Shown: positions 25,026 to 26,822 of the stretch, in pieces | Layout of the letters: the number at the start of each line of letters is the position of its first letter | Numbering within the stretch: position 1 is the stretch's first letter | Assembly: GCF_003323745.1 (NCBI RefSeq) | Contig: NZ_QOIL01000024.1 | Span: 1,866-65,865, forward strand | Reading direction: 5' to 3' | Length of the DNA: 64,000 bases | Origin: Sphaerisporangium album | GTDB lineage: Bacteria; Actinomycetota; Actinomycetes; Streptosporangiales; Streptosporangiaceae | Notes under the pieces: generated by a model | Database searches by the model: none | What the model was told of the DNA's origin: nothing | Seen by the model: the letters and a program-made list of their open reading frames with translations, nothing else | Program-made: the position numbers and the translations under genes

Positions 25026-26042
25026 ATGCTGATCGCACAGCGTCCCTCCCTCCTCGAAGAGTCGATCGAGGAGACCAGGTCGCGGTTCGTCATCGAGCCG
25101 CTGGAGCCGGGCTTCGGCTACACCATCGGCAACTCGCTGCGGCGCACGCTGCTGTCCTCCATCCCGGGGGCGGCGGTCACGAGCATCCGCATCGAGGGCG
25201 TGCTGCACGAGTTCTCGACCGTGCCCGGGGTCAAGGAAGACGTCACCGACATCATCCTCAACCTCAAGGCGCTGGTCGTGTCGTCCGAGCACGACGAGCC
25301 CGTTGTGATGTACCTGCGCAAGCAGGGGCCCGGCGAGGTCACCGCCGCCGACATCGCGCCGCCCGCCGGTGTCGAGGTGCACAACCCCGACCTGCACATC
25401 GCCACGCTGAACGGCAAGGCGAAGCTGGAGATGGAGCTGACCGTCGAGCGCGGCCGAGGCTACGTCTCCGCCGCCCAGAACAAGCAGCCCGGCCAGGAGA
25501 TCGGCCGCGTTCCCGTCGACTCGATCTACTCGCCGGTGCTCAAGGTCACCTACAAGGTCGAGGCCACCCGAGTCGAGCAGCGCACCGACTTCGACCGCCT
25601 CATCCTGGACGTCGAGACCAAGCCGTCGATGAAGCCCCGCGACGCGGTGGCCTCCGCCGGCAAGACGCTGGTCGAGCTGTTCGGCCTGGCCCGTGAGCTC
25701 AACGTCGAGGCCGAGGGCATCGACATCGGCCCGTCGCCGACGGACGCGGCGCTCGCCGCCGACCTCGCGCTGCCGATCGAGGAGCTGAACCTCACGGTCC
25801 GCTCCTACAACTGCCTCAAGCGCGAGGGCATCCACACGGTGGGCGAGCTCGTCGCGCGCAGCGAGCAGGACCTTCTGGACATCCGGAACTTCGGTGCCAA
25901 GTCCATCGAAGAGGTCAAGCAGAAGCTGCACGAGATGACGCTGGCCCTGAAGGACTCCCCGCCCGGGTTCGACCCGACGGCCGTCGCCGGCGGCGACTAC
26001 GACGACGACGACGCCCGTTACGTCGAGACCGAGCAGTACTGA
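25026..26042 (+). CDS. rpoA: DNA-directed RNA polymerase subunit alpha
   Basis: 338 aa. N-terminal dimerisation and assembly domain (about 1-230; [20 protein letters not shown] near 31-50). The C-terminal domain spans about 252-305 with the UP-element/activator contact residues Arg259, Asn262 and Lys292 ([26 protein letters not shown]). An acidic tail [17 protein letters not shown] ends the protein, as in related actinobacteria. ATG 25026 after GGGGAGAACCCAC. Confidence 0.98.
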
Positions 26043-26086
26043 TCTTCGGGGCGCCCGGCTTCACCGCTTCTCGCAGTTCCACGTCA

Positions 26087-26244
26087 ACGGGAGCCCCGGA
26101 GCACCGACTCCGAGGCTCCCTGCCCGACTCCGGTACCTGACACGGCCGGAGCGGGTCATCCGAGAACGGGAGTCCTGGGGTTCCACCCCCAAGGCTCCCG
26201 GCCCGACCCCGGTACCTGACACGGCCGGAGCGGGTCATCCCAAA
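26087..26244 (+). repeat. Tandem duplication of a 79-bp leader-RNA unit upstream of rplQ
   Basis: Unit 1 is 26087-26165 and unit 2 is 26166-26244. Each begins with a 12-bp hairpin: GGGAGCC-C-CGGAG / CTCCG-A-GGCTCCC in unit 1 and GGGAGTC-C-TGGGG / CCCCA-A-GGCTCCC in unit 2, both with 6-nt loops and the same C/A mismatch. All stem differences keep pairing. The second half (26114-26161 versus 26193-26240) is nearly identical, with two changes. Unit 2 ends 11 bp before the rplQ start and overlaps its AAAGGAG ribosome-binding site. Confidence 0.9.
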
Positions 26245-26255
26245 GGAGATAGACC

Positions 26256-26822
26256 ATGCCCAAGCCTGCCAAGGGCGCACGTCTCGGCGGCAGCCCGGCT
26301 CACGAGCGGCTGATCCTGGCGAACCTCGCCACCCAGCTGTTCCAGCACGGCCGCATCCGCACCACCGAGACCAAGGCCAAGCGCCTCCGGCCGCTGGCCG
26401 AGCGTCTGATCACCAAGGCCAAGAAGGGCGACATCCACAACCGCCGCCAGGTCCTGACCGTGGTGAAGGACAAGGGCGTCGTGCACCACCTGTTCACCGA
26501 GATCGCTCCGACCTTCGCCGAGCGTCCCGGTGGCTACACCCGCATCACCAAGCTCGGCCCCCGCAAGGGCGACAACGCCCCCATGGCGCTGATCGAGCTG
26601 GTGAGCGAGCCGCTGAACGCCGCCAGGGTCACCACCCGTACGGCTCCCGCCGCCGCCGCTCCGGCCGCGCCCGCCGAGGAGATCGTCGAGCTTCCCGAGA
26701 ACGACGTCCCCGCCGATTCCTCCTCGGAGGCCCCGGCCGACGCCGCGCCCGCGGACGAGACCCCCGCCGGCGAGAACGCGGCCGCGGACGAGAAGACCGA
26801 GTCCAAGAAGGACGAGGCCTGA
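26256..26822 (+). CDS. rplQ: 50S ribosomal protein L17 with acidic tail
   Basis: 188 aa. The core L17 (about 118 residues: [20 protein letters not shown]... to [12 protein letters not shown]) is followed by a ~70-residue Ala/Glu/Asp/Pro-rich tail ending [12 protein letters not shown]. Similar tails occur in other actinobacterial L17s. AAAGGAG at 26242-26248 is the ribosome-binding site. Unlike typical alpha operons the gap from rpoA is long (213 bp) and holds the duplicated leader unit, suggesting dedicated control of rplQ. Confidence 0.97.

Follow-up and report, generated by a model that had tools for sequence, protein, structure and literature searches.

In tandem riboswitches, such as those for glycine, a single leader contains the same sensing RNA twice. 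Their ligands are metabolites, whereas the presumed ligand of the leader analyzed here is a ribosomal protein. Among ribosomal leaders, the closest described element is RF03132, the L17-Actino-Proteobacteria ribosomal leader, which was predicted by Eckert and Weinberg (2020; PMC7247131) with L17 as the proposed ligand, because rplQ was the only ribosomal gene that the motif appeared to regulate. In the table of that paper the motif bears no mark for rRNA similarity, and the words tandem and two copies are absent from its main text. No experimental test of this leader class was found in the literature searched, and the accession RF03132 appeared in none of its papers. The same paper describes the L17DE motif, which is likewise associated with L17 genes but lies downstream of them and only in Firmicutes, whereas our leader lies upstream. 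In Escherichia coli, the alpha operon resembles our locus in being an rplQ-containing operon under ribosomal-protein control (which is a prediction in our case); however, its S4 site is located at the first cistron and forms a pseudoknot, unlike the leader studied here (PMC10931766). In the part covered, that 2024 review deals with the control of E. coli L17 by S4 and mentions no L17-bound leader. Each of the published ribosomal leaders compared here is depicted as a single element in the portions of these sources that were consulted.

The whole stretch of DNA that we analyzed, hereafter the window, comprises 64,000 nt from Sphaerisporangium album. The top named relatives of its rplQ product were Sphaerisporangium records (80–87% identity). 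The 3' part of the gap between rpoA and rplQ was occupied by two tandem units (Table 1), and a repeat search confirmed that the tandem duplication upstream of rplQ, first noticed in a sequence-only reading of this DNA, is real. The proximal P2 hairpin ended 9 nt before the Shine-Dalgarno sequence and 22 nt before the rplQ ATG.

Table 1. Features of the rpoA-rplQ region of the window and the basis on which each was assigned.
Feature	Positions	Strand	Basis
rpoA, RNA polymerase alpha subunit, 338-aa ORF, upstream gene	25026..26042	+	named by gene order and sequence
Leader unit 1 (distal copy), 76 nt	26086..26161	+	repeat search, RF03132 match, folds
Unit 1 hairpin P1	26089-26120	+	folds
Unit 1 hairpin P2	about 26122-26156	+	folds
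Unit 1 P2 core GGTACCTGACACGGCC	26132-26147	+	core pattern search
Junction of units 1 and 2, 3 nt	26162..26164	+	repeat search
Leader unit 2 (proximal copy), 76 nt	26165..26240	+	repeat search, RF03132 match, folds
Unit 2 hairpin P1	26168-26199	+	folds
Unit 2 hairpin P2	about 26203-26233, core 26211-26226	+	folds; marginally stable with rplQ start included
Shine-Dalgarno AAGGAG	26243..26248	+	by inspection
rplQ, ribosomal protein L17, 188 aa, presumed regulated gene	26256..26822	+	gene order and sequence

When the entire window was scanned against Rfam 15 at the gathering threshold, exactly two matches came up, both to RF03132 and one in each unit (26098-26154, 51.7 bits, and 26175-26233, 48.4 bits; gathering cut-off 34.9). 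Alignments and single-unit folds revealed the form of this family in both, that is, two neighbouring hairpins of which the second has the conserved loop GGUACCUGAUACGGCC. With scores above the cut-off, a place directly 5' of rplQ and stem covariation, both units are members of RF03132. Thus, a novel RNA family was ruled out, and the sequence-only reading, which knew of no described rplQ leader of this form, has to be corrected on this point. As judged from its sequence, the segment consists of two tandem copies of the known L17 leader; it has the two-hairpin structure and the place before rplQ of the published motif and differs from it in having two complete units in tandem (PMC7247131, as far as its published description was available to us).

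Beyond the observed family membership, position, structure, covariation and recurrent doubling, we propose, with slightly more confidence than doubt, that the segment is a cis-regulatory tandem leader in which L17 would bind at P2 near the Shine-Dalgarno sequence and the distal copy would serve as a second site. Each unit is modelled as two hairpins, the GC-rich and variable P1 and, 3' of it, P2 with the near-invariant loop UACCU-NRY-ACG, and surplus L17 would most likely bind P2. On the proximal P2, so close to the Shine-Dalgarno sequence, the bound protein could impede the loading of ribosomes onto rplQ. From its place 79 nt further upstream, the distal copy should be unable to cover the start site; it would most likely be a second binding site that provides higher occupancy or a steeper response. 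What is observed in the window is that one leader contains two structural units with conserved cores.

The two units were identical at 65 of 76 positions (86%), with a start-to-start distance of 79 nt. Nine of the 11 differences fell in the 32-nt P1 and only two outside it (26121/26200 and 26129/26208), in agreement with the earlier statement that the other half of the unit is almost unchanged. The three changes of stem pairs reported before for P1 were exact: C-G to T-G (26094/26115 versus 26173/26194), C-G to T-A (26097/26112 versus 26176/26191) and A-T to G-C (26100/26109 versus 26179/26188). All three pairs were still paired in both copies, and alignment and folds also bore out the retention of the C/A mismatch and the 6-nt loop. 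When nine random substitutions were placed in P1 (67% transitions assumed), all 12 pairs stayed intact in 0.6% of trials, and in 0.25% they did so with at least two double changes; for five substitutions confined to the stem, the corresponding values were 1.3% and 0.29%. The substitution at 26208, not discussed in the earlier account, replaces a T-A pair of P2 by C/A in copy 2, which makes the predicted proximal P2 less stable (−16.0 versus −20.8 kcal/mol). This C/A appears to be tolerated, because 13 of 112 single-copy relatives share it at the same P2 pair (−3/19). An assembly artefact would be an unlikely source of the doubling, since the copies differ.

Each unit was found to fold into the two hairpins P1 and P2. 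The fold of 26086-26164 reached −46.0 kcal/mol (z −4.5; none of 200 shuffles was as good) and that of 26165-26250 reached −43.8 kcal/mol (z −2.7; 3 of 200 shuffles). Further covariation was found in relatives; the first outcome named as fatal to the sequence-only reading, namely related genomes with neither the unit nor covariation, did not occur. For P1, the outer pairs 3 and 4 were paired in all 12 sequences compared (10 other species of the genus and both window copies), as G-C or A-T at pair 3 and as A-T, G-C or C-G at pair 4; shuffles reached 12/12 in 1.8% and 0.04% of cases, respectively, in a test that ignores kinship. Pair 6 was unpaired in 3 of the 12 and pair 7 in one. For P2, we used 112 single-copy loci that all have the exact core, so that core pairs are uninformative in this set. 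Pair −1/17 was CG in 102 loci, GC in nine and TG in one; pair −3/19 was CG in 33, AT in 22, TG in 21, TA in 9 and GC in 9 (unpaired in 18, including the 13 with C/A); pair −6/21 was GC in 81 and TA in 29; and pair −7/22 was CG in 68, TA in 39 and TG in 4. Like those for P1, these counts take no account of kinship. Together with the compensatory changes between the copies, this covariation backs the earlier suggestion that the RNA hairpin itself is under selection, and both P1 and P2 look selected as RNA.

The P2 core was also compared with rRNA. Mimicry of 23S rRNA was rejected: against the 23S locus of this organism the core had nothing better than weak matches, among them ACCTGAAACCG and CCTAGTACG; the stretch with CCTAGTACG is presumably part of the sarcin-ricin loop. 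The same locus (L135) also has, probably by chance, a stretch similar to a P2 loop variant (CCUAGUACG), in what we again take to be the sarcin-ricin loop. The lack of a convincing P2-loop mimic in this 23S locus counts against L17 binding at P2 as proposed above.

We then considered the distribution of the leader. RF03132 was detected in 11 of 11 genomes of the genus, so its presence in the window is to be expected, and in none of 14 control genomes. It was found in 24 of 60 mixed relatives and 220 of 341 genomes of the family, with stricter filters, and hence a loss of weak matches, in surveys of more than 40 genomes. The exact P2 core occurred somewhere in 82 of 394 genomes of the class, a figure that overstates the leader, because in 6 of 30 such loci inspected the core was not before rplQ (it was in the remaining 24). 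The core started 33–48 nt before rplQ in 100 single-core loci, so placement near rplQ, as in the proximal copy, is general; the distal copy of the window falls outside this range. The rpoA-rplQ gaps of three genomes of the genus (G005, G002 and G007) were identical to those of Sphaerisporangium records (L026, L027 and L028). In another gap (L017, genome G001), inspection by eye showed an additional P1-like hairpin, then a P2-like start and a repeated leader 5' flank, which suggests a possible remnant of an older tandem unit without P2.

Two intact cores close together were present in 22 of 948 genomes from three surveys (g107, f1 and g46, all of Actinobacteria), and all 22 tandem loci were directly before rplQ. 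They comprised 16 of 215 genomes of a Nocardioides-like genus (g107), three of the 341 genomes of the window's family (f1: G000, G256 and G292) and three of 392 sampled genomes of a Streptomyces-like genus (g46). The first assignment rests on a tandem stretch (G703) that is the same as that of Nocardioides alcanivorans (L048); the second genus, like an Actinomadura-like one (g79), was placed by tree. The core-to-core gap allowed was 4–34 nt in g107 and 9–69 nt in f1 and g46. In g107, the core occurred somewhere in 190 of 215 genomes, 17 of which had two cores; 16 of these were adjacent pairs, and in G816 the two cores were on different contigs. One locus (L041) that had two cores by a loose pattern had one by the strict pattern and was discarded.

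Spacings ranged from 23 to 79 nt and layouts differed. The window has P1-P2-P1-P2 at 79 nt, G256 has P1-P2-P2 at 38 nt, G1006 has P2-hairpin-P2 at 60 nt, and G292 has two P2 at 69 nt that flank a P2-like hairpin with a trimmed loop. This third hairpin (locus L184), with just a few loop bases left, is probably a decayed middle copy. The remaining 18 tandems were short P2-P2 arrangements at 23–30 nt, including all 16 from the Nocardioides-like genus (L166-L181). In these 18, pair −4/20, which was present in 112 of 112 single-copy loci, was absent from 17 distal and nine proximal copies, and 17 of the 18 distal copies also lacked most lower-stem pairs, a feature that counts against our preferred reading. 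In the short tandems, inspection by eye gave no sign that the 5' flank of the distal copy pairs with the 3' flank of the proximal one to enclose both P2 hairpins. In the long-spaced tandems the lower P2 stem was conserved in each copy, apart from the distal copy of G1006 and the C/A of the window, whose copies kept all other tested P2 pairs; the intactness of the tandems found is in part a product of selection by the search, which demanded intact cores in both copies.

Two quick trees, which do not distinguish gains from losses, were used to follow the tandem state. A tree of rpoA and rplQ (159 rows), on which G256 and G292 were nearest neighbours, gave six changes. The tree of the Nocardioides-like genus (among the matches listed, 149 loci, with 141 distinct stretches upstream of rplQ, reduced to 139 rows) also gave six, four of which were forced by well-supported branches. 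The doubling is rare (22/948) and comes and goes, which also counts against our preferred reading. Decayed second cores with up to four mismatches were not more frequent than in shuffles, with three among the 107 of the 112 single-copy loci that entered the test (6.3 expected) and one of 125 in another set (5.4 expected). This fits clean gain and loss of second copies rather than slow decay; it does not prove selection, because the tandem searches required intact cores. The recurrence of doubling in separate lineages suggests that two copies can be useful.

The distal copy might instead be a neutral leftover of a slippage duplication, with the proximal copy alone regulating rplQ, which we regard as possible but rather doubtful. 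The window's genome was the only one of 11 in its genus with two copies, the distance of the distal copy from the start site should preclude direct occlusion, and the main tandem clade of the Nocardioides-like genus (22 rows) included eight single-copy rows with no clear trace of a second core. On the other hand, the loop of the window's distal unit is intact and none of the seven P2 pairs tested is lost there, the stem changes between the copies remain paired, and the distal P2 is the more stable of the two in silico (probability of 0.95–0.98 with the rplQ start included). Besides its recurrence in separate lineages, doubling was found in the other 14 of the 22 rows of that clade, a share inflated by the sampling of every tandem genome but only part of the single-copy ones. 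It seems unlikely to us that the ligand is instead some other factor, for example S4, or that the segment between rpoA and rplQ serves in mRNA stability or processing. In favour of S4, the synthesis of L17 in E. coli is subject to repression by this protein, for which an additional site upstream of rplQ has been proposed without strong evidence (PMC10931766, in the part covered). Within 25900-26300, a consensus scan for sigma-70-like promoters found none, and no intrinsic terminator (GC-rich hairpin followed by a T run) was detected, which fits a longer operon transcript. However, rplQ is the motif's only regulated ribosomal gene in the account of PMC7247131, an argument for L17 that is not direct evidence.

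It is quite improbable, in our view, that alternative pairing is itself the device, either between the copies or between the 3' arm of the proximal P2 and the Shine-Dalgarno/start codon region, shifted by ligand. Nested copy-to-copy forms were predicted by RNAfold in some short-spaced tandems (such as L167 and L176), but near-identical hairpins can always pair with each other. For the window, folding of 26043-26290 gave a minimum-energy structure without the proximal P2, which counts against our own reading as well; 26223-26241 was paired with 26245-26266, in the Shine-Dalgarno and start codon region of rplQ. Because the 3' arm of the proximal P2 has this alternative partner, the hairpin is unstable in folds that extend into rplQ; its probability varied from 0.00 to 0.68 with the span folded, and P2 probability was below 0.5 in 47 of 133 proximal P2 stretches. 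However, a fold that stopped at the start codon retained four separate hairpins, and enforcing the proximal P2 barely moved the exposure of the window's Shine-Dalgarno sequence (0.49–0.52 against 0.51–0.52). Across the 133 loci, enforced P2 shifted this exposure by more than 0.1 in 22, of which 14 became more closed and eight more open. Opening or closing of the Shine-Dalgarno sequence by P2 thus has no consistent direction, and folding alone gives no backing for a structural switch. Despite these results, occlusion of the Shine-Dalgarno sequence by a bound protein, as in the L17 model that we favour, is possible.

The element itself was already known; the feature of note is its tandem form, which is recurrent in Actinobacteria and was not found described in the literature searched, where tandem ribosomal leaders received no mention. 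The recurrent doubling of P2 points to the P2 loop as the functional core of the leader. Moreover, since one-copy and two-copy forms exist in close relatives, the effect of a second site on the strength or steepness of feedback is directly testable. As a wider and distinctly tentative proposal, which we consider less likely than not, tandem L17 leaders might constitute a class of two-site autoregulation that was repeatedly gained in Actinobacteria and in which joint action of two L17 binding sites sharpens or extends the feedback on rplQ. If so, they would be the ribosomal-protein counterpart of tandem riboswitches.
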